From Rudanella lutea DSM 19387 (GTDB lineage: Bacteria; Bacteroidota; Bacteroidia; Cytophagales; Spirosomataceae): a stretch of DNA of 64,000 bases. A model generated the notes under the pieces. It saw only the letters and a list, made by a program, of their open reading frames with translations. It searched no databases and was not told the DNA's origin. Position numbers and translations under genes: made by a program. The DNA lies in NCBI RefSeq assembly GCF_000383955.1, contig NZ_KB913013.1:1518277-1582276 (forward strand), given 5' to 3'. Of this stretch, positions 27,325 to 41,034 are shown in pieces (position 1 is the first letter of the stretch; each line of letters opens with the position of its first letter).

Positions 27325-30300
27325 ATGACCGAAACCTATTCGTCAGCGGCCCTATACTTTGATGAAATAAAACAGGCCCACCAGCAAATCCCACTATTAA
27401 AAGACCGATATCCTCGCTTTCGCACCATTTTAGAGGGCGTTTGTAAAGATCTTACCCGCGACGACGGACTACATTTTGCTAATCTCTTCGGTCGATTATC
27501 GTATTTGTGCCAGCGCGAAAACTTCGATCGGGAAGCCAACACCATGGCCCACCGAATCCGAATGCAGGCTAATAAAGTGCTTCACCAGAATCTTAATCCC
27601 TCCGAGACAGAGTACCAGCAGGATCTAAGGGCCTTGTGCCAAACTATTGCCCGGCTGTATCGAACGCATATTCCAGCTCACCTCGCAGTTCTTCTACCAA
27701 CTGCAACATCCGGCAGTCGACGGGTATCAATCCGGCCAGTGCACAAGAGTCGAACAATCCCGAAAATGCGGGTCGAGATTAGCCAAATTCAGGATAACCT
27801 TCTACTGTGTAGCCAGGAAGATGACGTAAATTCGGATGCTGAATTACTCAAAGTGCGGGTCAATGTTGCCCAGACCAATGATCTTTTCCGCCAGTCAGTA
27901 AGCCATTTTTGGGTAGGGGCCCAACTCAACCTACTGCAGGTGAACCTCAACAGCGAAGGCTATTATACCCCGCAGTATATTATTCTCGAACCCGATTACC
28001 TGGTCGACGTTACCTCGGTGGCAGAGTGTTTCACCAATTATGCTACTACTCCCCTGCTCTACCTGCTCAACCGATTTTTCCCAAAAACGCAGTCAAAACC
28101 TATCCTACTCGGAAATCTGGCCAACCTCATGATCGACCGGATGATGCACCGGACGGAGGTCCCACAGAGTTTTATGGATATGTTGAAGCAATCGTTCCGG
28201 GAAACCCCGCTCGCTTATGCGACCTGTGAAGATATTGCGGAACAAACCAAAATGCAGGAATTTGTTAAAGAAGCTCAACAGCATTTCCAGAACATTGAGC
28301 AAACCATACAGCAACAGTTTCCTGGACAGGGTATCTACGCGGGCACAGTAATTCTGGAACCAGCCTTCCTGTGCGAGACTTACGGTCTGCAAGGGCGGCT
28401 CGACCTTTTTCAACCCCACGACGTAGCGAACCCCGCCCGTATTGTCGAATTGAAATCGGGCAGCTTTTTCCCGTCGGACAGCCTACCATTACCCCAGAAC
28501 AACTTCGCGCAAGCTACGCTATACCGACTCATGATTCAGAGTGCGTTTGCGCTTCAGCCAGAGCAGGTACAACCTTCCATCCTATATTCTAAACTGGCGT
28601 TAGAAAGTTTAAAATATGCTCCATATCTACAAACTTGGGAGAAAAAGGTGCTGGATATGCGAAACCAGATTGTGGCCGTCGAGTACGAGCTCGCCCGCGA
28701 CAAATCGGGCAAATACCTCAATACATACCTCGAGACACTCCTTCCTGAACGTCACCCCGCAGCGCCCCCTTTTTTTACGAACAAGCTGCGCAACCTGCAC
28801 GAGCCTATCCGAAAAGCAACCCCAACCGAGCGATGCTATTTCAACGCGTTTGTCCGATTTATTGCCGAGGAACATCTGATTACCAAAATTGGCAATGCTG
28901 GGCATGAGGTCAGTAGTGGGCAGGCAGCCCTATGGGCCAATGAGTTTGAGGTAAAGCAGGAGGCCTACGAAATTTTGTATAATCTGACCATCCTCAACAA
29001 TCAGATTCATACGCCCGAACGAACTATCGTTTTCCAGCGTGATCCTCAAATCGGAGGTTTCGTCAATTTCCGGACGGGAGACCTGTGTGTTCTTTATCCG
29101 CGTAAACCCAATGATAGCCAAGCCACTATCTGCAACAATCAAACCTTAAAGGGTACCATACTCAAACTGACTAAAGAGGAGGTTACCGTGAAGTTTCGGT
29201 ATCAGCAACGAAACCCCCATTTTCTTACTCAGCACACACACTGGGCCCTCGAACATGATACGCTCGACAGCAACTTTGCCACCCAGTATCAGAGTTTATT
29301 CGCCTTTTTAAAAGCCCAGCCCGACCGGCGTAGCCTGCTACTTGGCTTACGCCCACCCGAAACAAGGACGGCTTTCACCTACCAAAATCCCGATCTGCGT
29401 CCTGAGCAGGTACAACTTGTGCGCGACGCCCTGGCCGCCAACGATTATTATCTGCTGGTGGGCCCTCCCGGAACCGGCAAAACATCGCGGGTGCTAAGGG
29501 CTATGGTGCAAAAACTCTACGAAAACCCCTCAGCAAACGTGCTTTTGCTTGCATACACAAACCGGGCTGTAGACGAAATATGCATGGCCATTCGTGAACT
29601 TCCCTTTACCCGGATCGGCACTACAGCCCACCCCGACTTCAGAGGGAATTTGCTCGAAAATCAGATTGCACAAGCTACTACCCGCCAACAGGTACTGAAT
29701 ATACTGGAAGGCCACCGCATTTTCGTATCGACCATGGCGTCGCTGGCGAGTAGGCCGGAACTATTCAAATTAAAACAGTTCGATGTAGCCATTGTCGACG
29801 AGGCATCTCAAATTCTGGAACCGCAGTTGATCGGATTACTCGCCCGGCCAGAAGTGAAAAAGTTTATCCTCATTGGCGATGACAAACAGTTGCCCGCCAT
29901 TGTACAACAGTCTGATAAACGAGCCGAAACCGACATAGCCGAACTTAATGCTATTGGCCTTCATACCCTAAAAAACTCCCTTTTTGAACGGTTGCTGGCC
30001 CGAACCGATGCCCAGGGATGGACCTGGGCCCGCGGTACGCTTACCTTCCAGGGGCGTATGCACGAGCAAATAGCATCATTTGCCAATACCTATTTTTACG
30101 ACAATCAACTTAATACAATCCGACCCGAGCAACAAGCACCACTAGTAAGCCGGTACCTTCGGTTCGACCAAACCCAGCCACTCGAACGGTTGCTGGCCTC
30201 CCGGCGGGTAATCTTTTTCCCGTCAATGCCTGATCATACCGATAAGCCAACCCGTGCAAGGTCGCATACCGGTCCTAAAAGCCATCTCTATGAAGCCAAA

Positions 30301-30816
30301 TTGGTTGTACAGCTGATAAGGACTGTCCAGAGGCTATACCAAGCCAACAAACAACCGTTCGATCCTGCCCTTTCGCTGGGTGTAATTACCCCCTATCGCA
30401 ACCAGATCGCCTTAATCCGCCATTTATTGGATCAGGCTCAGATATCTGATCACGACAAGATTATGATCGACACCGTAGAGAGATTTCAGGGGTCAGAGCG
30501 TGATGTGATTATCTACTCATTCAGTGTGAACACCCCGCGGCAGGTGCTACAGCTCCCGAATCTGACCAGCGACGGGCGTGTTGACCGTAAACTAAACGTA
30601 GCCCTGACACGCGCCCGCGAGCAGTTTATTGGTATTGGCAACCCGGATTTATTATCGGCCAACTCCTTGTTTAGTCAAGTCATCAGCTGGGCCCGACAGG
30701 AAGGAGGATATATACAGGAATCAATTCAAATGGTACTTGACAACAGCGTGTCGATACCAGACAAGGTATCTGTGACAGATATTCCACCTGTTTCTGAAAC
30801 TCCCTTACCCTTCTGA
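27325..30816 (+). CDS. Dna2-like PD-(D/E)XK nuclease fused to SF1 (UPF1/Dna2-type) helicase
   Basis: An 1163-residue protein. After a helical N-terminal region (1-330) it carries a Cas4/Dna2-like nuclease core: D360 in GRLDLF, E375 and K377 in IVELKSG, and Q396 to Y400 in FAQATLY. The C-terminal half is a superfamily 1 helicase with Walker A GPPGTGKT (713-720), Walker B VDEAS (D825, E826), motif III GDDKQLPAI, motif V RFQGSERD (about 1052) and motif VI ALTRAR (about 1094). Such proteins process flapped or branched nucleic acid in repair, and related nuclease-helicases occur in anti-phage systems. The gene stands alone on the plus strand and ends 63 bp from the convergent RtcR-like gene. No sigma54 promoter was found before it. 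Confidence 0.88.
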   Translation: MTETYSSAALYFDEIKQAHQQIPLLKDRYPRFRTILEGVCKDLTRDDGLHFANLFGRLSYLCQRENFDREANTMAHRIRMQANKVLHQNLNPSETEYQQDLRALCQTIARLYRTHIPAHLAVLLPTATSGSRRVSIRPVHKSRTIPKMRVEISQIQDNLLLCSQEDDVNSDAELLKVRVNVAQTNDLFRQSVSHFWVGAQLNLLQVNLNSEGYYTPQYIILEPDYLVDVTSVAECFTNYATTPLLYLLNRFFPKTQSKPILLGNLANLMIDRMMHRTEVPQSFMDMLKQSFRETPLAYATCEDIAEQTKMQEFVKEAQQHFQNIEQTIQQQFPGQGIYAGTVILEPAFLCETYGLQGRLDLFQPHDVANPARIVELKSGSFFPSDSLPLPQNNFAQATLYRLMIQSAFALQPEQVQPSILYSKLALESLKYAPYLQTWEKKVLDMRNQIVAVEYELARDKSGKYLNTYLETLLPERHPAAPPFFTNKLRNLHEPIRKATPTERCYFNAFVRFIAEEHLITKIGNAGHEVSSGQAALWANEFEVKQEAYEILYNLTILNNQIHTPERTIVFQRDPQIGGFVNFRTGDLCVLYPRKPNDSQATICNNQTLKGTILKLTKEEVTVKFRYQQRNPHFLTQHTHWALEHDTLDSNFATQYQSLFAFLKAQPDRRSLLLGLRPPETRTAFTYQNPDLRPEQVQLVRDALAANDYYLLVGPPGTGKTSRVLRAMVQKLYENPSANVLLLAYTNRAVDEICMAIRELPFTRIGTTAHPDFRGNLLENQIAQATTRQQVLNILEGHRIFVSTMASLASRPELFKLKQFDVAIVDEASQILEPQLIGLLARPEVKKFILIGDDKQLPAIVQQSDKRAETDIAELNAIGLHTLKNSLFERLLARTDAQGWTWARGTLTFQGRMHEQIASFANTYFYDNQLNTIRPEQQAPLVSRYLRFDQTQPLERLLASRRVIFFPSMPDHTDKPTRARSHTGPKSHLYEAKLVVQLIRTVQRLYQANKQPFDPALSLGVITPYRNQIALIRHLLDQAQISDHDKIMIDTVERFQGSERDVIIYSFSVNTPRQVLQLPNLTSDGRVDRKLNVALTRAREQFIGIGNPDLLSANSLFSQVISWARQEGGYIQESIQMVLDNSVSIPDKVSVTDIPPVSETPLPF

Positions 30817-30879: not shown

Positions 30880-32331
30880 CTAATTATTTCCAGTTTCAAT
30901 TCCATAGCCCGCAATCTTGGCCGTCAGGGTATTGATAGACCCGTAGCCCAACGCCTTGCAGGCCTGCGATTTGTTGCCCCCGAAGTAAGCCAATGCCCGT
31001 TGGATGAGCTGTTTTTCGTGGGCCTGCCAATCGAACGTACTCCCCTGAGTGGATGGTGTCAGGAGCCAACCGGGCAGGTCGGCCTCCTCGGCAACGTCTC
31101 CGGCAAAGACATACAGCGACTCGATCAGGTTTTCGAGTTCGCGCACATTGCCCGGAAACAGATAGCCGTCCAGGTGTTTCCAGACAGCGGGCGCCAATTT
31201 GAGGGGCTTGGGTCGCTTAAATACTTTCCCTTTCGTTTTCAGAAAATGCTCGATCAACGCCCGCTTGTCGGCCACACCCCGCTCGGCCAGGGTAGGCAGG
31301 TGTAGCTCAGCCACCGAGAGCCGGTAAAGCAAATCCCACCGAAACTGCCCCGCTTCGCAGGCATCGCGCAGGTTCCGGTGCGTAGCCGCTATGATTCGAA
31401 CGTTCGTTTTTCGGGACTTGGTGGCTCCTACGGGCGTAAACTCCCCCTCCTGCAACACGCGCAGAAGCGTTTGCTGCATGTAGGGCGAAATGTCGCCGAT
31501 CTCGTCCAGAAACAGGGTGCCTTCGCGGGCGGCATCGAAAAACCCCTCCGTTTTCTTTTCGGCCCCCGTAAAAGCCCCTTTTTCGTACCCAAACAGACGC
31601 GATTCGAGCAGGGTGTCGCCCAAGGCCGAGCAGTTGACCGCTACAAAAGGCCCCGCCGATCGGTGCGACTGCCGGTGGATGTACCGGGCCAAATGCTCTT
31701 TACCACTCCCACTCGCGCCGTGAATTAGCCCCGTGACCCGGTCGGTTTGGGCCAGTTTGGCCGCCCGGTCGTACACAGGCTGAAGAGCCGATGTAATGAG
31801 GTATTCGTCGGTGCCCGCTTTGGCTTCTTTTGTTTGCAGACCCTCCCGAATCACAATCGATACCGGCACCGCCGACCGTTCCGTATCAACCACCATCAGC
31901 TCGGGCCGTTTGGTTTTCGTGAACTGCGGAGCGCGGGTTTGCAGCAGGCGCGTCGGGAGCGACAGACTTGTGTGGCACAGATACCAGGCCACCTGCATAG
32001 CCGGCGTACCGGGCGAAATAAACAGATCGATCTGATCGGCCTCCGATAAACTCAGCAACAGCGCTTCGACCTTCGTCTTGATGTCGGGCATATCAATCGG
32101 ATCGGCAACGCGCATGCCCCTACCCTCGATCTGACGGCCCGGAAAATCGAGCAACAACCTGTTAATGAGCCGGTCGAGCCGGGGGTCTTCGTCCGGAGCC
32201 GCCGACGACAGGATCAGGTGCCGGTCGTGCTCAAAAAAGTACTGATGAAACTGATAGGTTGGCCCATCCGTGCGGATCTCGTTGCCGGCAAAGTCATTGC
32301 TAAATGCGTACCACGACACCAGGGCCTTCAT
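30880..32331 (-). CDS. RtcR-like sigma54 activator with N-terminal CARF-like sensor
   Basis: A 483-residue regulator with three parts. Residues 1-165 resemble the CARF domain of RtcR: DQIDLFISPGTPAMQVAWYL (about 99-118) followed by LPTRLLQT aligns with the ITTGTHVAQ and LPARLIQS region of E. coli RtcR as I recall it. Residues 178-405 are a sigma54-interacting AAA+ domain with Walker A GASGSGKE (205-212), the sigma54 contact loop GAFTGA (252-257) and Walker B TLFLDEIGD (272-280). The C-terminus is an HTH (GGNKSQACKALGYGSINTL). RtcR of E. coli is switched on by damaged-RNA ligands and drives rtcBA. Neither gene is present here. A sigma54 promoter lies about 120 bp away, pointing in the opposite direction. 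Confidence 0.9.
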   Translation of the reverse strand: MKALVSWYAFSNDFAGNEIRTDGPTYQFHQYFFEHDRHLILSSAAPDEDPRLDRLINRLLLDFPGRQIEGRGMRVADPIDMPDIKTKVEALLLSLSEADQIDLFISPGTPAMQVAWYLCHTSLSLPTRLLQTRAPQFTKTKRPELMVVDTERSAVPVSIVIREGLQTKEAKAGTDEYLITSALQPVYDRAAKLAQTDRVTGLIHGASGSGKEHLARYIHRQSHRSAGPFVAVNCSALGDTLLESRLFGYEKGAFTGAEKKTEGFFDAAREGTLFLDEIGDISPYMQQTLLRVLQEGEFTPVGATKSRKTNVRIIAATHRNLRDACEAGQFRWDLLYRLSVAELHLPTLAERGVADKRALIEHFLKTKGKVFKRPKPLKLAPAVWKHLDGYLFPGNVRELENLIESLYVFAGDVAEEADLPGWLLTPSTQGSTFDWQAHEKQLIQRALAYFGGNKSQACKALGYGSINTLTAKIAGYGIETGNN

Positions 32332-32383
32332 AATCTAGCTGTTTTTGAGCCTCATATAGAGTGCCCCATTTTTATCAATTATT

Positions 32384-32406
32384 GACAGTACTTTTCAAGT
32401 ATCGAC
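32384..32406. promoter_or_regulatory. Candidate upstream activator site (dyad) for the RtcR-like protein
   Basis: An inverted repeat with half-site GNCNNTACTT, spacer TTC and the mirrored half AAGTANNGNC is centred about 57 bp upstream of the -24 element. It sits between the regulator gene and the sigma54 promoter, where an enhancer-binding protein would be expected to bind. The site is AT-rich and was found by eye, so the assignment is tentative. Confidence 0.5.
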
Positions 32407-32449
32407 AAATATAGACGAATAAATCACTTAAAAAACGACCTTTTTCCGG

Positions 32450-32466
32450 TTGGCACGAATATGGCC
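32450..32466 (+). promoter_or_regulatory. Sigma54 (-24/-12) promoter
   Basis: TTGGCACGAATATGGCC matches the consensus YTGGCACGNNNNTTGCW, with the GG at 32452-32453 and the GC at 32464-32465 exactly 12 bp apart. Within the TGGCACG and TTGC blocks the only mismatch is G for the second T of TTGC. Transcription would start near 32477 on the plus strand. The divergent neighbour encodes a sigma54 activator with an intact GAFTGA loop, which supports the call. Confidence 0.75.
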
Positions 32467-32476
32467 TATTCAATCG

Positions 32477-32665
32477 TGTACGTTCAGAAGATGCCTCAGG
32501 CTTTCTGGCTATACCACACCGAGTTACATAACCCATATACACGGCCCCCGTGGGTCGGTCATCATCCGCTGCGCCTGCTTTGCGGCCCGCTATATCCACA
32601 CCAATACCTGACTGTTGGTGGGTGCGCGGAACGACCGGCCTACCGGGGCCGTGTTTGAAATCGTT
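32477..32665 (+). ncRNA. Candidate sigma54-driven structured RNA next to the RtcR-like gene
   Basis: The transcript predicted from the sigma54 promoter would first form a small hairpin at 32484-32508 (CAGAA with TTCTG, then GCC with GGC). It would then form a long stem between 32539-32560 and 32633-32654: 22 positions, of which one is a C-C mismatch and two are G-U. The 72-nt apex can form further helices, for example CACCAA (32599-32604) with TTGGTG (32615-32620) and CCGC (32566-32569) with GCGG (32626-32629), suggesting a branched fold. The only ORF across it starts at 32461, inside the promoter, so it could not be translated from this transcript. The 3' end is uncertain; a T-rich tail follows the stem. 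An alternative is a structured 5' leader of the M15-like gene at 32754. Confidence 0.6.
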
Positions 32666-32753
32666 TATTAATTTGGGGTTCTGGTTTATTGTAGGTCATG
32701 TTCCAGAATCCACCCCGAATGCCTATGTTCGACCACCCAACCCTTTGTTCTCC

Positions 32754-33185
32754 ATGCGAATCGTCGCTAGTGTTTTGGGCCTTGTGCTTTTTCTGGTGGG
32801 TGTCTATGCTGCCATCAGCTACAGCGGGCTGAGTCCGCGGGTCTGGCAAAAGAAACGCCTGCTCGACCGCTACCTCACTGCGCGGGGGTATCGAACCCAC
32901 TACATACTGCTATCGGGCTACCGACCGCCCTGGCTCAACCGGCTCATGCCCTTGTCGGCCCGCAAAAGTGTGCATCAGCAGGGGCAGGCCATCGACCTAC
33001 TCGTGTTCGACATCAACGGTAACCACCGCTTCGACCCGGCCGACTTGCGGATTCTCTCCGACGCACTCGATCACCTCGACAGCCAACACCCGCGCTACCG
33101 GGGCGGTGTGGGCTTGTACCGTCAATCGTTTCCGCGCATGTTGCACTTCGACGTATCGGGTCGGCATCGGCACTGGGATTATTGA
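32754..33185 (+). CDS. Small M15/DUF882-like peptidase domain protein, membrane-anchored
   Basis: A 143-residue protein when started at 32754 (MRIVASVLGLVLFLVGVYAA, a membrane anchor or signal). The open frame reaches back to 32550, but that would run through the hairpin region. The body shows LSGYRPPWLN, SVHQQGQAIDLLVFD and GGVGLYRQSFPRMLHFDV, which are the zinc-site His/Asp and terminal H-x-D arrangement of the M15 peptidase family (D-Ala-D-Ala carboxypeptidase-like or murein endopeptidase). A role in peptidoglycan trimming is likely. Whether it is read through from the sigma54 promoter is open. Confidence 0.75.
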   Translation: MRIVASVLGLVLFLVGVYAAISYSGLSPRVWQKKRLLDRYLTARGYRTHYILLSGYRPPWLNRLMPLSARKSVHQQGQAIDLLVFDINGNHRFDPADLRILSDALDHLDSQHPRYRGGVGLYRQSFPRMLHFDVSGRHRHWDY

Positions 33186-33204
33186 AGGGGGTAATATTCA
33201 AAAC

Positions 33205-33240
33205 AAAAAGCCGCTTGCAAGAAATTGCAAGCGGCTTTTT
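33205..33240. terminator. Perfect bidirectional terminator
   Basis: A 16-bp perfect stem with a GAAA loop (AAAAAGCCGCTTGCAA and its complement) is flanked by A and T runs, so it works on both strands. It ends the M15-like gene on the plus strand. Before the island inserted, it would also have followed the tRNA-Asn gene on the minus strand. Confidence 0.92.
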
Positions 33241-33245
33241 GTTTT

Positions 33246-33293
33246 GGGCTCCCGAAGCTGGGCTCGAACCAGCGACCCTCTGATTAACAGTCA
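33246..33293. repeat. Left attachment repeat (attL), 3' half of tRNA-Asn
   Basis: These 48 bp are identical to 40987-41034, which is the anticodon-to-3' end part of the intact tRNA-Asn gene. The D-arm and 5' half are missing here, so this is not a functional tRNA. Together the two copies bound the 7.7-kb integrative element. Confidence 0.95.
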
Positions 33294-33418
33294 TACTTTC
33301 CAGTTTATCTCATTTTATCTGATTTTTCTTTATTTAATATAAGTATCTGATTTTTAGATAATTAAATCAAAGGAAACATTGTATTTGTTTTGACTTTATG
33401 TATCTTTACCATCAAATC

Positions 33419-33438
33419 ATGTGCAAATTATGTGCAAA
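33419..33438 (+). repeat. 20-bp repeat, left copy (candidate integrase arm site)
   Basis: ATGTGCAAATTATGTGCAAA occurs here and again, in the same orientation, at 40920-40939. Each copy is itself a tandem of the 9-mer ATGTGCAAA. It lies 126 bp inside the left att repeat and just before the integrase start codon, consistent with an arm-type binding site and with integrase autoregulation. Confidence 0.75.
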
Positions 33439-33442
33439 TATT

Positions 33443-34705
33443 ATGAAAATTTCCAAGCCAATCGTTACAGCATTTCTTGATACACGTAGAAGCAAGAAGG
33501 ATGGTCTGTATCCCTTAAAATTGCGGGTTACTCATAAGGGCGAACGCCTGTACATACCGCTTAACGCTGACTATAGCAAAGAGTCTTGGGAAGCTGCATT
33601 AAAACCAAAGGGAGGAGGGTCAAAGATTCAAGACATAAGAAATCTTAAGTCTAAGATTGAAGCGGATGCCAATGAAATCATTGACAACATGAAGTACTTT
33701 TCATTCAATGAATTTGAATCCCGATTTGTTCGCCACAATTCATCTACTTTTACCAACCAAGTGATTTCAGATGATGTTTACACAGCAATCAAGAGTTACG
33801 CGGATGAAAAGTTGAACAATGGCCAAGCATCTACTGGACTTAGTTATGAAAGTTTACTTTCTTCCTTAAAGCGATTTAGAAAGAATAAGCCTATTGCATT
33901 CGGTGAAATCTCAGTACCCTTCCTGAACGATTATCAGAAATTTATGGAAACGAAAGGTCGTTCTGATGGCGGAGGGCAAAACACCAGTGGTATAGGTATC
34001 TATATGAGGAATCTACGAGCTATCGTGAAAAGGGCAATAAAAGTCGGCATCCTACAAGAAGATGAATACCCATTTGGTAAAGGGAAATATGAAATACCGG
34101 GTGGTACGAACTTCAAACGACCTTTAACTATTGAGAATATTAAAGCTATTTGGAGCTATGAATTACCGCAAGGCAGCACTTCGGCAAGGAATAGAGATTT
34201 GTTTATCTTTTCCTATTTATGTAATGGAATGAATCTTAAAGATATTTTCCAACTAAGATGGACTAACATTCAAGATGACGTTATGTACTTCATCAGAGCG
34301 AAGACATCAAGAACCAAAAACCAGCCCCAACCGATTCGGGTGATACTCATCCCTGAAGCCTTAGAAATCATCGAACGGTGGAGCAATCAAGATAAGTCAA
34401 AGGATGCTTACGTTTTTGACTTTCTAAAGCCAGAAATGACACCTATTCAAATACGATATGCAATCGGTGGTTACACTAAAAGGATTAATAAGGATATACA
34501 GAAGGTTGCTAAGGCCCTCGGTATTACCAACCATGTAACAACTTATTATGCAAGACATTCATTCGTTTCGAGACTAATTCAAACAGGGGTTCGACTGACG
34601 GAAATTAAAGACCTGATAGGCCACTCTGATATAAGAATGACAGAACAATATGCAGCAACGTTAGACGAGAGTAACCAGAGAGTTTATGTTCAAAATCTCC
34701 TTTAA
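33443..34705 (+). CDS. Tyrosine recombinase/integrase, Bacteroidota mobile-element type
   Basis: A 420-residue site-specific recombinase. I chose 33443 as start (MKISKPIVTAFLDTRRSKK) because the longer frame from 33398 would translate through the 20-bp repeat. The N-terminus is an arm-DNA-binding domain (DGLYPLKLRVTHKGERLYIPLN), followed by a SAM-like core-binding domain and a catalytic domain from about residue 215. The catalytic end shows YYARHSFVSRLIQ, IKDLIGHSDIRMTEQYA, giving the H-x-x-R and the nucleophilic Tyr. It should catalyse insertion into and excision from tRNA-Asn. A short hairpin (ATTGTT/AACAAT) follows the stop. Confidence 0.95.
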   Translation: MKISKPIVTAFLDTRRSKKDGLYPLKLRVTHKGERLYIPLNADYSKESWEAALKPKGGGSKIQDIRNLKSKIEADANEIIDNMKYFSFNEFESRFVRHNSSTFTNQVISDDVYTAIKSYADEKLNNGQASTGLSYESLLSSLKRFRKNKPIAFGEISVPFLNDYQKFMETKGRSDGGGQNTSGIGIYMRNLRAIVKRAIKVGILQEDEYPFGKGKYEIPGGTNFKRPLTIENIKAIWSYELPQGSTSARNRDLFIFSYLCNGMNLKDIFQLRWTNIQDDVMYFIRAKTSRTKNQPQPIRVILIPEALEIIERWSNQDKSKDAYVFDFLKPEMTPIQIRYAIGGYTKRINKDIQKVAKALGITNHVTTYYARHSFVSRLIQTGVRLTEIKDLIGHSDIRMTEQYAATLDESNQRVYVQNLL

Positions 34706-35009
34706 ATTGTTGTTCAACAATAAAATGATATCCGAAATTTGGTAGGTTTGCTAAGGCTTCATCACAAGGCTCTTGTTAGACGGATTTAGTTCTGAAATAC
34801 CTGTTCAAGCTCAGAAAGTACATTATTTTAGCCTGATTCGTGCCTGTTAGGTATACTGTCAGACCCATTTACTCTAATTCTCTCACATAATCAAGAACAA
34901 TGCAATAAAGTAATTACAATTACATTAAATTATAATGATTTATGTTTAAGACAGCAGCCTATTAGTTGCTCATTATTTAACTCAGAATCTAAGGTTAAAA
35001 GTAACAATA
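34706..35009. other. Intergenic region inside the element, no gene
   Basis: This 304-bp AT-rich gap lies between the convergent integrase and PHP/SMC genes. Apart from a weak hairpin right after the integrase stop (34706-34721) I see no RNA gene, ORF or repeat in it. Confidence 0.6.
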
Positions 35010-37673
35010 CTAATGTTTCCAATTATCATATATCATTTTTCTATGATTGAAGGCCTCTTTCCCGCCTTCCATTATACTAACTATTCGAGATTGGATAAAC
35101 AAATCGTCAATACTACCAGAACTCAGCCTTATTTCTGACTTAGATTCATCAACTTGAAAGTTACAAGCAAAAATTTGCTCACAGTCCCCTAATACAGGTA
35201 TATTTGGGTTGTGTGTTGCGAAGATAAACTGAGTTTTACTTTTTAACTTTTTTAGCTCGGCTATTACATCCTCATATATGGTTTGGTTATCTAAGTCATC
35301 TTCTGGCTGATCAATAAGAATCAAATCATTCTCCTTCAACGACAAAATAAATAAAATAACAGCGGATGCACGTTGCCCAAGAGAATGATCTTTAAGAGGC
35401 CTATCTTTATAATAAATGTTATATTTATCAGCTACTCGAAATGTTAGGAATTCGCTTGCACGCTCTCTAAATTTCCCTATAAACTTTGGCAAAAAGTCGC
35501 TATTTGAAAGAATAGATTTAATCTTAGAATTATCAATTCGTAAGTCGTTATAGACTTCAACAAGATCTTGGTACTCTGAAACAATCATACTTATGTTTTT
35601 ATCTGATATATTTGTCCCTCTTAATGCGTCTTTTAAATAATCTTTAAAACGGTCTTTGTTTCCTTTAAAATCAACTGCCAGACGTACAGAAGTTTGACTT
35701 AGATTAATTTTATCAATCTCCTTCTTTACAATCTCATATTCTTTGTACCAAAGCTTTTTCAGATCAGCTAATGCCTCTTTAAGTTTCGACCTTAATTCGA
35801 CTTTTTTCGTATTAAGCCTACTAACTTCCTCTAAATCAATATTAATTTTATTTAATTCATTCGACAAAGTAATATAAGTATCAGGATTTAAGGTTGGAAT
35901 ATCAATAGTTCGCTTTATTTCAGAAAATTCCTGCTTCAAACTATCAAAATGAGCGATGAATTGTAGCTCAATTTGTTTAATTTTTTCCCTTTCGGAATCA
36001 AGCTTATTTAATAATTCGCCAATTTGTTCAAATGTTGAATGAAAATTTCCGAATGACTTAAACACTTCATCAAATATTTCATTATTTTCTTTAGACTTAT
36101 AACTAATATAATCATCAAGGTTAAATGAATTGTCGGTCCATAACTCACGCAATTTACTAATAATCATTTCTTCAAAGGTTGACAATGCTGCTAACTTACT
36201 TTTATCCTTGTCAAACTCTACCTGTCTATTGAGTTTTTTGTCAACGCTATGTTGTTTATACGCCTTTTCTTTGATCTCGAGTTCAGCTTTTTTGGCTTTT
36301 AAATCTTGCTCCTTGCTAATTGTAGCATCAACCTTTTTGATTTCTCTTAACAAATCTTCTACTTCAAAGCATTTAATTTCAAGTTGCTGTTTAATATCTA
36401 TCGTTTTGTTTCCAATAAGCCTTCTTATAAGATCATCTGTTGAGGCCTCACTTCCAAGTTCAGATAGATCCTTTTGTCCAAAATATAAAGGATTTGAAAC
36501 AATTGAATCAACCTTCAAACTTTGTTGTAGCATTCCATCTAAATATATATTCGCAGATTCCCCAAAAATGCGCTCAACAGTAAATACTTGACCTTGACTA
36601 TCAATAATATCGGCACTCATTTTTCCACCACTTCCTAAAAGTTCTTGAACAATATTATTTTTATAATCATAGTCTTTCGTACTATGAGAGAGGGGAATAT
36701 CTAACAAATACCTTATAGATTCAAGGATTGATGACTTACCACTCCCTCTAATTCCTATTAAATTATTCATAGAAGAACTCAAGTAAACACTTTTATCTCC
36801 TAATCTTTTACTTACATAAGTGATTGATTTTATGTAAGGTCTCGAATGTAAAACTGGGTAAGCTAATAGTCTATTTTTATAATCTTTTAAAGCATATTTA
36901 ACAGCGTCAAAATTATAGTCACCAATTTTAAGATACGTTTTTTGAGTAACACCATCTATTTCATTTCCTTTACCAATCCCCTCAATTCCTTTATGAGCAC
37001 AATCAGTTCCTTCTACAAACGCAGGAACGTTATTATCTAAAATACTATTCAACTTACCAATGTTTCTATGAGTTCTAACTTTTTGTAATGCAATAACATT
37101 CTTCTTAAAAGAATCTAAATTTAAAAATTCACTTAGTCCCCTGCCCTCCAATTCTAAAAACAGTCCACTTGAATCATCAACATGAGCAAGCACTATAAAA
37201 TAGTCTTTTTTATATCGGTCTAATGCAAGGCATAATTCTTTCAGGTTATATATAGAGTTTACATCGTAGGGAGGTTTGTCAAAATTTGCCACGCCAGAAA
37301 ACGCCCCATTGATAAACTGTTGAATATAGTTATGGTTATTATCCATATTTATAATCCACTCTTCTTTAAAAACAATTAACGCATGAAGCCCTTTTCTGCC
37401 ATCGTTAATTGAAAGCTCAACTCCCGGCAATAAGTATATTTCCTTTTTAATTGCATTCTTTTTGAGTTCCCTGAACTCTATTTCATCAAATTTATTATGA
37501 TTGGTAATTACTCCAATCCGAATTTCTTCTTCTTCTAACTTATCTAAATAGTTTTTCACAAAGTAATTAGGGTCACCATCATATTTAAACTCTTCGTCTG
37601 CTTTTGTGTGAAGATGAAAGTCAGCCCGCAAGTAGTTAGAACCGTTTTCAAAAATTTTTAATTTATTAGCCAT
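35010..37673 (-). CDS. TrlF-like protein: PHP phosphoesterase domain fused to SMC-type ATPase
   Basis: An 887-residue protein. The N-terminal PHP domain (about 15-290) shows metal-site motifs DFHLHTKADE, ITNHN, LPGVELS, VLAHVDD and EGTDCAH. The ABC-type ATPase has Walker A GIRGSGKSS (about 315), a long coiled-coil insertion (about 435-690), the signature HSLGQRAS, Walker B LILIDQPEDDLDN and the H-loop ATHNPN. This matches the PHP-plus-AAA family annotated as TrlF-like, members of which occur in defence islands. As the largest cargo of the element it may protect the host against phages or rival DNA by nucleic-acid cleavage. That role is inferred from family context and not shown by the sequence. 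Confidence 0.85.
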   Translation of the reverse strand: MANKLKIFENGSNYLRADFHLHTKADEEFKYDGDPNYFVKNYLDKLEEEEIRIGVITNHNKFDEIEFRELKKNAIKKEIYLLPGVELSINDGRKGLHALIVFKEEWIINMDNNHNYIQQFINGAFSGVANFDKPPYDVNSIYNLKELCLALDRYKKDYFIVLAHVDDSSGLFLELEGRGLSEFLNLDSFKKNVIALQKVRTHRNIGKLNSILDNNVPAFVEGTDCAHKGIEGIGKGNEIDGVTQKTYLKIGDYNFDAVKYALKDYKNRLLAYPVLHSRPYIKSITYVSKRLGDKSVYLSSSMNNLIGIRGSGKSSILESIRYLLDIPLSHSTKDYDYKNNIVQELLGSGGKMSADIIDSQGQVFTVERIFGESANIYLDGMLQQSLKVDSIVSNPLYFGQKDLSELGSEASTDDLIRRLIGNKTIDIKQQLEIKCFEVEDLLREIKKVDATISKEQDLKAKKAELEIKEKAYKQHSVDKKLNRQVEFDKDKSKLAALSTFEEMIISKLRELWTDNSFNLDDYISYKSKENNEIFDEVFKSFGNFHSTFEQIGELLNKLDSEREKIKQIELQFIAHFDSLKQEFSEIKRTIDIPTLNPDTYITLSNELNKINIDLEEVSRLNTKKVELRSKLKEALADLKKLWYKEYEIVKKEIDKINLSQTSVRLAVDFKGNKDRFKDYLKDALRGTNISDKNISMIVSEYQDLVEVYNDLRIDNSKIKSILSNSDFLPKFIGKFRERASEFLTFRVADKYNIYYKDRPLKDHSLGQRASAVILFILSLKENDLILIDQPEDDLDNQTIYEDVIAELKKLKSKTQFIFATHNPNIPVLGDCEQIFACNFQVDESKSEIRLSSGSIDDLFIQSRIVSIMEGGKEAFNHRKMIYDNWKH

Positions 37674-38240
37674 GCTCTTGGTGATCTTTAATGTTTTTTC
37701 GTTTTACTGCACATTGTTCGCACCATTCAAGTGGGGGTATTAACTTTAAGGAGCTTGTTTCGTTCACGGCAGCTCAATAGTAGCCAATATTCTCCAGTTA
37801 AATTATGGTTTGGAGTCAGGATAGATGCACACTTCAAATGTTAATTAGACGCCTAATTAATGTATTAAAATCTAATATACCAAGCTTTCATACTTAAATA
37901 ATATAATATACATGTTTCATAGACTATCGAAACATCTATCAAATGAACTTTGTTACGACCCTTTACAGGTATTAGCAAGAGTTCTGTAACAATCACTCAA
38001 TTTAAGATCTTGAAGTAAACAAAGCTTTCTGAATTTCAGATTAGATTTACATACCATAAGCTGAAGTAGAGGTACATTTACGCTGCAAACCGCTTTACTA
38101 TACATTTATTTTGTATATAACATTCGAATTCTCGTGGTTAAACATAGCTTTAGTATGTGTTACACTTTTTAGACGTTTGGTAAAAAAACGGTCCAGTGAT
38201 AAAAAATAGGTCTGACCAAACCTTCTCCTTAACAATTGCC
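37674..38240. other. AT-rich non-coding region with a dyad inside the element
   Basis: A 567-bp gap upstream of the PHP/SMC gene and downstream of the Rep-like gene. It holds a perfect 8-bp inverted repeat TTAATTAG-ACGC-CTAATTAA at 37841-37860, about 170 bp before the start of the PHP/SMC gene. It could be an operator or part of a replication or transfer origin. No ORF in it looks coding. Confidence 0.5.
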
Positions 38241-39287
38241 TTAGCTACTGTAATTATACAAGCTGGCTGGATTCAACTGGGTCAACATCTCTTCGTACTT
38301 ACTTCTTTCCTTTACAATAATCTTGTAGGGCTTCATAGCGACATGAAAATCAGTATTCTTTGAGTAAAAGTTCTTTAAAAAAACTTTTATCGCTTTGAGA
38401 TCATAATTGAAATATCTACAGAGTAACAGATTCTTCATAAAATTCAATCCGTTCCTACCCGTCTCCACAACGGAACTATAATTATAAATTGGTACAATAT
38501 TGTAGTTGTTAAACACATCCATATCCAACACTGAAGACATGTAGTCATCGATTGGACTAATGTTAGAATAAAGTACGTCAACCAGATAATTGCTTCCAAA
38601 AGCTCGCTTCACCTCGCTTTTATTTTTTAACTTTAATTCATAACGGGTTTTTCCTTTGAATGCCATAAGAACCTTTTCCCCATTGCTAAGGCTTTCAAGA
38701 AATTTCCTCTGATAAGTTACCATTTCATATTCTTTACAATATATAGTTAAAGATTTGTTGGCAAATCCTCGCTGTACTTCCTTACTTTTATTCTTTCTAA
38801 TTGTTACAATAGTTAAGTTATTGTTTCCGTAAGGAATAATAATTGCATTTGCTTTTCGCAATGCTGCATCCAATTTTAACCCGAAGTAATCATCCATTCG
38901 TTGATTAACATCTCTCGTCACATCACAAGTAACGACTATAATATCATTATAATCGATAGTTTCACTAATTCTAACGATACCCGTATTATTGATGGCACTA
39001 ATAACTTGATCGAAATTCTTATAACAAATCAATTCTGGGTATCTATCACCTAAGCATTTTGCCGAAACAGTGATCCGAACAATATAGGAGTTGTAGTTAA
39101 TTATTACATCCAGTTTGTAACGCCTATTCATATCTCCTTTTGAATAATATTTTCGTTTTACTAATAAACCTGATGGTAAACTTTCCGTACTGAAACAATC
39201 TTTATTGTACGATTCTAATTCGCATAGAGGGATTGTGAAAGTTATTTCGTCAAATGTTTGATACTGTTGATTTATATTGTTAATCAT
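38241..39287 (-). CDS. Element-encoded protein, possibly replication-initiation-like
   Basis: A 348-residue AT-rich gene with no confident family. It begins MINNINQQYQTFDEITFTIP and contains VTCDVTRDVNQRMDDYFG, SLTIYCKEYEMVTYQRKFLE and KTRYELKLKNKSEVKRAFG. The mix of a basic RYELKLK strand and a tyrosine- and lysine-rich C-terminus resembles replication-initiation proteins of small mobile elements, and its position between a helix-turn-helix gene and a long non-coding region fits. The similarity is by eye only. It could equally be an unrelated element protein. Confidence 0.5.
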   Translation of the reverse strand: MINNINQQYQTFDEITFTIPLCELESYNKDCFSTESLPSGLLVKRKYYSKGDMNRRYKLDVIINYNSYIVRITVSAKCLGDRYPELICYKNFDQVISAINNTGIVRISETIDYNDIIVVTCDVTRDVNQRMDDYFGLKLDAALRKANAIIIPYGNNNLTIVTIRKNKSKEVQRGFANKSLTIYCKEYEMVTYQRKFLESLSNGEKVLMAFKGKTRYELKLKNKSEVKRAFGSNYLVDVLYSNISPIDDYMSSVLDMDVFNNYNIVPIYNYSSVVETGRNGLNFMKNLLLCRYFNYDLKAIKVFLKNFYSKNTDFHVAMKPYKIIVKERSKYEEMLTQLNPASLYNYSS

Positions 39288-39352
39288 AATTAACCCTTTT
39301 TAAAACTGTTTTTTTAACCTTGATATAAAATTGTAGATGGTTTGTAGTGATG

Positions 39353-39658
39353 TCAGTCATTATATTCATTATTCCTAAATGCTCTGATTGATTGATCTAA
39401 TTCGTCTTCATTATAAAGGACTCGTCTACCGATTCTATGTGCGACTAAACGCCCGCTCTTCGTCCAAGCATGAAGAGTAGGTAATGTAATATGAAGCTTC
39501 TCCGCGGCTTGATCACGGGTAAGGAACCCGTTGGTTTTGTTTATCGGTATCGGCAATGATTTGGATATAGCTTGCTTTACAGCGGCTTCAATTGCGCCCT
39601 TAATTATGCTTATGAGTTCGTCGGTTGATATTGAAATCAAATTGGTTTGTTGTATCAT
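39353..39658 (-). CDS. Excisionase-family helix-turn-helix protein
   Basis: A 101-residue DNA-binding protein. The C-terminal half is a MerR/excisionase-type winged helix (FLTRDQAAEKLHITLPTLHAWTKSGRLVAHRIGRRVLYNEDEL). The N-terminal half is a short helical segment. Proteins of this kind in Bacteroidota elements act as recombination directionality factors or as repressors. Its place upstream of the Rep-like gene and in the same orientation suggests co-expression. Confidence 0.85.
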   Translation of the reverse strand: MIQQTNLISISTDELISIIKGAIEAAVKQAISKSLPIPINKTNGFLTRDQAAEKLHITLPTLHAWTKSGRLVAHRIGRRVLYNEDELDQSIRAFRNNEYND

Positions 39659-39806
39659 TTCTTTAATGATTAATTACAGTGCAAACCTATCGACCTTCAG
39701 CAACCAGAGGAAGAGAATATATAATATATTATAAAAAATAAAGAGTTATATTTCTGATATTCAGAATGTTAACCAATACCTTCTTTCCCAAATTGTTATA
39801 AGATTA

Positions 39807-40868
39807 TTATCCTTTTCTGACATCCAGCCTGAAGCGTTTTGGTCGATTACTACCCCTAAATTTTGATAAACTCGCCTTTATTGTGTTTGTTGATGGCATT
39901 CCTTCGAACGACTGATTTATAAAATAGGCAATATCATCAAGAGTGTCTGGTAAAAGTGTGGTTGTTCCCTCACGGTTGTTCATGATCGTAAGTTGAGCAA
40001 ACAAATCATACAATGCATCATTACCACCAGTCCACCTTAATTTCACCTTACCTCGTTGCTCATCCTTATTATCACCCGCCTTGTTGCTCTGACTTTCCTT
40101 CTGCATAGTGGTAGCGTTTAATTGATCTGTTAGAAATGCTTCGTACTGTAGAATTGACTCTCCTATGAAGTAATGCCTTAATATTGTTACGGGTAACTTA
40201 AATGCTCCTAAAAATCCATATCGTCCCCGGTACAACATCTTAAATATTTTATCATAATCTCGGCTTCTATTCAGCAGTTTTGATTCGTACCCCTCTTTAA
40301 ACAGTTCATAAGCATAATCAGGTGCAGGTGTTTGATCGTTACTATCGACTTCATGCACATAAGACAATAATTCTTTTCTACCGATCTTTCCATTTTCATA
40401 ATTAAGCTTTACAATGTTGACCATCTGCAACTCAGCGTTAATTGCAAGTTTCGGTATAGGCGAGGTTTTAACGCTTGAATCATATTTGTTCATCAACTGA
40501 GCGTACAATAACGGTTGGTTCTCTTGATTCATTAACTGTTCCGTCATTGAAACCAAAATTTCTAACTCGTCCGGGTTTTTAGGCTCGATTGTAGTAAACT
40601 GAACGTTTTGCAGGTCCTTGACATACTCTTGTAATGTCTTGTTTAAAGCAGTTGCTTCTTCTATCTGCTCTGTGGTTAGACTCCTTCTCTGTAGACGCCA
40701 TGAGGCTATTGACTGGATCAAACTACCACGTTCATTAGTAAGATTACTTTTATAAATGGTAAGATTGTCGACACCATGTTTGATAAACACACTAATTTTC
40801 TCAGAATAACTACCGGCTTGATTGTAGTCGCTACGTAGCTCTTCATACTGAGAATCGATTAGGGACAT
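39807..40868 (-). CDS. RteC-like element protein
   Basis: A 353-residue protein whose C-terminal region (KVKLRWTGGNDALYDLFAQL, then IAYFINQSFEGMP and KASLSKFRGSNRPKRF) resembles the RteC regulator of Bacteroides conjugative transposons, which controls excision genes. The N-terminal half is helical (LIQSIASWRLQRRSLTTEQIEEA) and not recognised. It is the gene nearest the right att site, on the minus strand, and may regulate excision together with the HTH gene. Family assignment rests on the C-terminal pattern. Confidence 0.6.
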   Translation of the reverse strand: MSLIDSQYEELRSDYNQAGSYSEKISVFIKHGVDNLTIYKSNLTNERGSLIQSIASWRLQRRSLTTEQIEEATALNKTLQEYVKDLQNVQFTTIEPKNPDELEILVSMTEQLMNQENQPLLYAQLMNKYDSSVKTSPIPKLAINAELQMVNIVKLNYENGKIGRKELLSYVHEVDSNDQTPAPDYAYELFKEGYESKLLNRSRDYDKIFKMLYRGRYGFLGAFKLPVTILRHYFIGESILQYEAFLTDQLNATTMQKESQSNKAGDNKDEQRGKVKLRWTGGNDALYDLFAQLTIMNNREGTTTLLPDTLDDIAYFINQSFEGMPSTNTIKASLSKFRGSNRPKRFRLDVRKG

Positions 40869-40919
40869 GTAAGTTTAGACGTATCCGTTTGTGTGCAAAT
40901 AGGGAGTGATGGCTCAAAT

Positions 40920-40939
40920 ATGTGCAAATTATGTGCAAA
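40920..40939 (+). repeat. 20-bp repeat, right copy (candidate integrase arm site)
   Basis: Identical to 33419-33438 and in the same orientation, 48 bp inside the right att repeat. A further single GTGTGCAAAT unit lies about 30 bp to its left. Paired short repeats inside both ends of a tRNA-targeted element are typical of arm-type sites. Confidence 0.75.
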
Positions 40940-40941
40940 AA

Positions 40942-40972
40942 GAAAAGCCACCTGTTTCTGCAGATGGCTTAA
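40942..40972 (-). terminator. Element-borne terminator behind tRNA-Asn
   Basis: On the minus strand AAGCCATCTG and CAGGTGGCTT form a stem with one mismatch, followed by TTTCTTTTT. It lies directly after the 3' end of tRNA-Asn and replaces the original terminator (33205-33240), which the insertion moved 7.7 kb away. Confidence 0.75.
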
Positions 40973-40986
40973 CTTATTGATTATCA

Positions 40987-41034
40987 GGGCTCCCGAAGCT
41001 GGGCTCGAACCAGCGACCCTCTGATTAACAGTCA
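40987..41034. repeat. Right attachment repeat (attR) within tRNA-Asn
   Basis: 48 bp identical to 33246-33293. It covers the 3' half of the intact tRNA-Asn from the anticodon loop to the acceptor stem. Confidence 0.95.

Follow-up and report, generated by a model that had tools for sequence, protein, structure and literature searches.

What does a CARF-type sigma-54 activator of Rudanella lutea DSM 19387 switch on, when the DNA facing it appears to encode a structured RNA? To answer this, we analysed a 64-kb stretch of a 6.5-Mb genome (hereafter the window), and compared the locus with its relatives. The reading that we favour and, judging from sequence comparison, consider rather probable is a CARF/sigma-54-induced structured RNA, either free or as the leader of an M15 peptidase-like gene; the locus would then be a version, specific to this lineage, of a switch type that is already known.

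The regulator matches a CARF-AAA-HTH activator profile

The regulator gene (30880-32331, minus strand) encodes a 483-aa activator of RtcR_PspF2 type, composed of CARF, AAA (sigma-54 interaction) and HTH parts. The protein matches the PADLOC profile RtcR_PspF2--CARF_AAA_HTH (PDLC01995) over its full length (residues 1-479 of 483, E 4.7e-129), which bears out the sigma-54 activator of CARF/RtcR-like type proposed in an earlier note on this DNA. Pfam searches returned Sigma54_activat (7.3e-62) and HTH_8 (1.4e-7), and the Pfam RtcR model scored 23.9 bits, barely above its cut-off of 23.1. Among the best PDB matches to a model of the N-terminal domain (residues 1-176, pLDDT 79) were chains of Csm6, Can2, Csx1 and Cam1; none of the matches reached E<=0.001 and chains of KaiC were interspersed among the CARF proteins.

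The same note had linked the regulator to RNA repair, and this link had to be given up. RtcB (PF01139) was not found in the genome holding the window (0 of 1; 9 of 14 control genomes were positive), and because of its absence an RNA-repair target was rejected and the role of an RtcR regulator of RNA repair is not supported; orthologous modules face defence-type genes. The regulator gene is convergent with a gene for a 1163-aa helicase (27325-30816), for which the best PADLOC match, over partial length, was MkoA (E 7.2e-66). Rudanella paleaurantiibacter, a close relative from this genus, has no helicase gene at that position; its regulator is followed by an ECF sigma gene.

A sigma-54-like promoter is divergent from the regulator

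We found a sigma-54-like promoter, TTGGCACGAATATGGC, at 32450-32465 (plus strand), which differs by one mismatch from TTGGCACGNNNNTTGC, has the GG-N10-GC spacing and reads away from the regulator; the near-consensus -24/-12 promoter described earlier is thus present. Transcription would start near 32476-32477. The site is the sole match with at most one mismatch in the 64-kb window. Since 0.53 such sites are expected there by chance and at least one arose in 45 of 100 shuffles, the motif by itself proves little, and the weight of the site therefore comes from its position and conservation. The counterpart in R. paleaurantiibacter reads TTGGCACGAAACTGGC. We searched the stretch of 20-260 nt from the regulator start codon against 200 shuffles per locus: in the Rudanella pair the sites lie 118 and 122 nt from that codon, and none of the shuffles was as good in either species. 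These data support a predicted divergent sigma-54 promoter beside the regulator.

Tandem TCAA-N5-GAYA sites at 32375-32405 (plus strand) form a putative upstream activating sequence, to which we infer that the regulator binds. The tandem pattern has a single match in the genome of R. lutea. Two TCAA-N5-GAYA sites are present in R. paleaurantiibacter (locus L032) and in L029, and one in each of L027, L030, L031 and L094; by this pattern none was detected in L026, L028 and L033.

Relatives of the regulator face defence-type genes

The N-terminal domain of the regulator was detected in 10 of 222 family genomes and in 26 of 390 order genomes, 7 of the 26 belonging to the family. Divergent sides were compared for nine further family genomes, and for 19 genomes of the order outside the family. 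The same genomes stand under two labels in the case of L010/L033 and L012/L094 (G199), and L013 was left out because its match covers the AAA part only. In all eight family loci beyond the Rudanella pair, the top-scoring sigma-54-like site lay 79-81 nt from the regulator start codon, a near-constant spacing that can be tested independently. The number of shuffles as good, out of 200, was 0 for L029, L031 and L033, 3 for L027, 5 for L030 and 8 for L026, and rose to 59 for L028 and 66 for L094, where the sigma-54 score by itself does not stand out from shuffles.

Defence-type genes are faced by the site in seven of these eight loci. DUF2130 genes lie behind it in five genomes (L010/L033, L012/L094, L027, L029 and L030). 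Profile searches identified a type I methyltransferase in L033 and L029, and in L027 a specificity subunit; other type I genes, in L012 and L030, were assigned by reading the sequence alone. L033 also contains DrmA, L026 contains BrxC, with a helicase coming first, and in L028 the site is followed by genes for a SNF2-type helicase and a DUF1156 protein (helicase-methylase). The operon of L031, a short contig, was left out of the count because its first gene gives a ThiD match and no DUF2130.

In L011, a MAG outside the listed family, the regulator is present and no notable sigma-54 site was found (130 of 200 shuffles as good). The best sites among the 19 order loci outside the family were those of L091 and L075, matched by 0 and 4 of 200 shuffles, followed by L082 (14), L086 (18) and L085 (22); the remaining loci gave weaker sites, and most had no notable one. 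Two loci of one genus, L080 and L083, have a common stretch, ACAAGCCTRTCA ... CAAAATCAGACACC, seen by eye within 300 nt of the start of the divergent side. It lies in the gap beside the regulator, folds with z -2.99 and -1.59, and is possibly another conserved leader.

The segment behind the promoter is conserved between two Rudanella species

Comparison with R. paleaurantiibacter revealed a conserved block at 32491-32658 (plus strand), with 10 substitutions in 167 sites (6.0%) and one indel. Differences were far more frequent at fourfold sites of the regulator (69 of 236, 29.2%; Fisher p 1.7e-9 vs. the block) and of the M15 gene (24 of 69, 34.8%), and in the two flanks of the block (39 of 114, 34.2%, p 1.4e-9; and 26 of 93, 28.0%, p 2.5e-6). 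Identity per 20 nt was 85-100% throughout 32491-32650. It was still 95% in 32631-32650 but 50% in 32651-32670, and this drop falls where the stem described below ends. As 6.0% stands against 28-35% at fourfold sites and flanks, the block looks constrained in this comparison of two species only.

The block is predicted to fold into a long hairpin

The main hairpin (32539-32655, plus strand) contains a 21-pair stem (32539-32654) of 10 + 11 pairs round one mismatch; its inner stem is conserved and its apex is not. We calculated -89.8 kcal/mol for 32474-32680 (z -4.66, 0 of 200 shuffles as good) and -69.7 kcal/mol for 32539-32655 (z -6.50). The R. paleaurantiibacter sequence gave z -3.24. The main stem forms in both species, so that the long stem of the earlier description holds; the branched apex that went with it appears in the window only, since the best fold of the relative is unbranched. 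All 47 consensus pairs are present in both sequences, with three one-sided and no both-sided changes. The check proposed in the earlier note gave a divided answer: the sigma-54 motif is kept in relatives, and covariation, which could be counted over two sequences only, was seen at 0 of 47 pairs. When substitutions of the same types were placed at random, 15.2% of 1000 trials kept a fold just as stable, so the observed changes do not prove structure. When 28 divergent regions were folded (up to seven 180-nt windows per region, the best one retained, with 40 shuffles for each), z fell below -4 only in the window, L032 and L093, the last with z -4.46 at only -27.4 kcal/mol.

An open reading frame in the block is not kept

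It had been claimed that the RNA contains no ORF that could be translated. This was incorrect: ATG 32491, 14 nt past the inferred start at 32477 and common to R. paleaurantiibacter, opens a frame of 55 codons that runs to 32658 (plus strand) within the RNA. The block might thus encode a small protein, truncated or frameshifted in one of the two species, and besides the shared ATG this would agree with the start of the conserved block, which falls about at ATG 32491, and with 14 identical residues among the first 18 (read from the alignment). We nevertheless consider it quite improbable. An indel of 1 nt at a C-run breaks the frame, leaving the relative with 39 codons and another C-terminal half; conservation runs on beyond the relative's stop, and in a hand count most changes in this frame replaced an amino acid. 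The ORF had no Pfam match. At E<=1 it had matches in 86 of 222 family genomes, the best other one (E 0.002) with a stop inside, and none of these was a convincing relative. On these grounds the block was rejected as a protein gene.

The block is restricted to few genomes and matches no known RNA family

DNA searches detected the block in 2 of 59 relatives, namely the window and R. paleaurantiibacter. An RNA-model search with strict filters gave 2 of 222 family genomes and one further match (G145, E 0.195), which was taken as chance. From 395 phylum genomes the model recovered R. lutea only; R. paleaurantiibacter is absent from these matches and so presumably not in the phylum sample. No credible match was obtained in the 29 loci other than L032 (L078 at E 8.4). 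Two genomes of the same genus, G002 and G003, gave no regulator, RNA or M15 gene at the thresholds used, and in G002 no ECF-sigma match was obtained, hence no syntenic empty site was found. The hairpin has one copy in the genome (E<=0.01), and the block had no match in plasmids and phages and none in viral contigs by exact 21-mer; a repeated or mobile hairpin was accordingly dismissed.

Rfam gave no match on the block at gathering score, and membership in a known RNA family was rejected. At E<=10 the region 32300-33300 yielded 30 matches, of which only sR41, on the minus strand and at chance level, falls inside the block. Covariance models of Y RNA were found neither at gathering score nor among these 30 matches, so that a bacterial Y RNA (YrlA) is not supported. 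With regard to a retron, no reverse transcriptase was seen among 12 window translations scanned with Pfam.

Such a narrow, lineage-specific occurrence, together with the lack of compensatory change in the pairs, would fit a remnant or a recently exchanged tract without a function of its own, its low divergence coming from recombination and its hairpin being incidental. We regard this as unlikely: the tract is shorter than 170 bp and has its 3' edge at the stem end, which is unusual for an exchange, and the fold lies below shuffles in both species.

An M15 peptidase-like gene follows the hairpin

Downstream on the same strand lies an M15_2 peptidase-like gene (DUF882; 32754-33185, plus strand; Pfam PF05951, E 5.2e-7). 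Its differences from R. paleaurantiibacter number 7, 5 and 37 by codon position. A search of 380 order genomes for relatives returned 13 matches, spread over 11 of them; six of these loci, read over about 3.4 kb each, showed other neighbours and no regulator. Neither the M15 gene nor the regulator was confirmed in viral contigs. After the M15 gene, we read from the sequence a GC-rich, terminator-like hairpin with a T-run (33201-33243, plus strand). Our terminator scan of 32300-33400 reported nothing, though this hairpin is evident; because of that oversight, the silence of the scan between the RNA and the M15 gene is weak evidence for co-transcription. The gene possibly belongs to the same transcript as the RNA.

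These observations bear on the main rival, itself a sub-case of the favoured explanation: the block would have no role beyond that of a structured 5' leader on the M15 mRNA, where the hairpin tunes stability or translation, and the peptidase gene would be the direct target. In its favour are a gene on the same strand that is conserved and under purifying selection, the empty scan between the RNA and the gene, and the hairpin with a T-run behind it. Against it, the stretch 32661-32753 between hairpin and gene is unconstrained (26 of 93 sites differ), relatives of the M15 gene in the six loci stand among other genes and lack the regulator, and the scan overlooked an evident hairpin as well. On balance we find a leader-only role rather unlikely.

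Further downstream in the window, a 7.7-kb integrated element (33246-41034) is located at tRNA-Asn. It is bounded by direct repeats of 48 bp of the tRNA-Asn end (33246-33293 and 40987-41034) and contains an integrase gene (33398-34705) and a gene for a PHP/AAA-type protein (35010-37673; partial PADLOC match to Ppl, E 1.2e-27). The M15 stop of R. paleaurantiibacter is followed after 6 nt by a convergent gene encoding HsdR domains, with a specificity subunit adjacent.

A model of the switch and its relation to known systems

Under the favoured reading of a CARF/sigma-54-induced RNA, the activator, a CARF-domain protein, probably senses infection or damage by way of an RNA or nucleotide signal. 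It would then bind the tandem sites and turn on the sigma-54-like promoter. The same module in relatives faces defence-type operons, and in Rudanella no such operon lies behind the promoter. The first ~180 nt of the predicted transcript would form the conserved hairpin RNA, acting alone or as structured leader of the M15 mRNA. The data support the regulator, the place of the promoter and a segment under constraint that folds into a hairpin; a noncoding RNA would be a plausible direct output, with the M15 leader as the main rival. More specifically, a defence switch may have been re-wired such that a single noncoding hairpin RNA replaces the restriction-type operon as the direct and main output; here the RNA could, for example, act on a nuclease or on the CARF sensor itself, as its decoy or ligand. 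This version we put forward only tentatively, as possible yet doubtful. If transcription is confirmed, it would follow that RNA is a further means by which switches facing restriction, BREX and DISARM-like genes can act, and the locus, with one promoter and one hairpin, would offer a compact reporter for the signal of the RtcR_PspF2 family.

A literature search of limited extent returned no report of an RNA driven by an RtcR_PspF2-type activator. The small RNAs GlmY and GlmZ are driven by sigma-54 activators. The likeness lies in a small RNA that would be under the direct control of a sigma-54 activator; the difference is that the activator belongs to another family and that the Rudanella block has no Rfam match above threshold.

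A further comparison is with the rsr-yrlBA-rtcBA operon of Salmonella, with RtcR and Y RNAs (PMC7790460). It has in common with our locus a CARF sigma-54 activator whose divergent target includes noncoding RNA, and it differs in that the Rudanella genome lacks RtcB and the block lacks a match to the Y RNA family. RtcR-like activators outside the Rtc system are often tied to restriction-modification (PMC4012209, PMC11090510). They resemble the regulator studied here in their CARF-AAA-HTH make-up and in the divergent sigma-54-like site, and relatives of this regulator likewise face type I restriction-modification, BrxC and DrmA genes. In Rudanella, unlike the systems described there, the place behind the promoter where such an operon would stand is taken by an M15 gene and a segment predicted to give a hairpin RNA.
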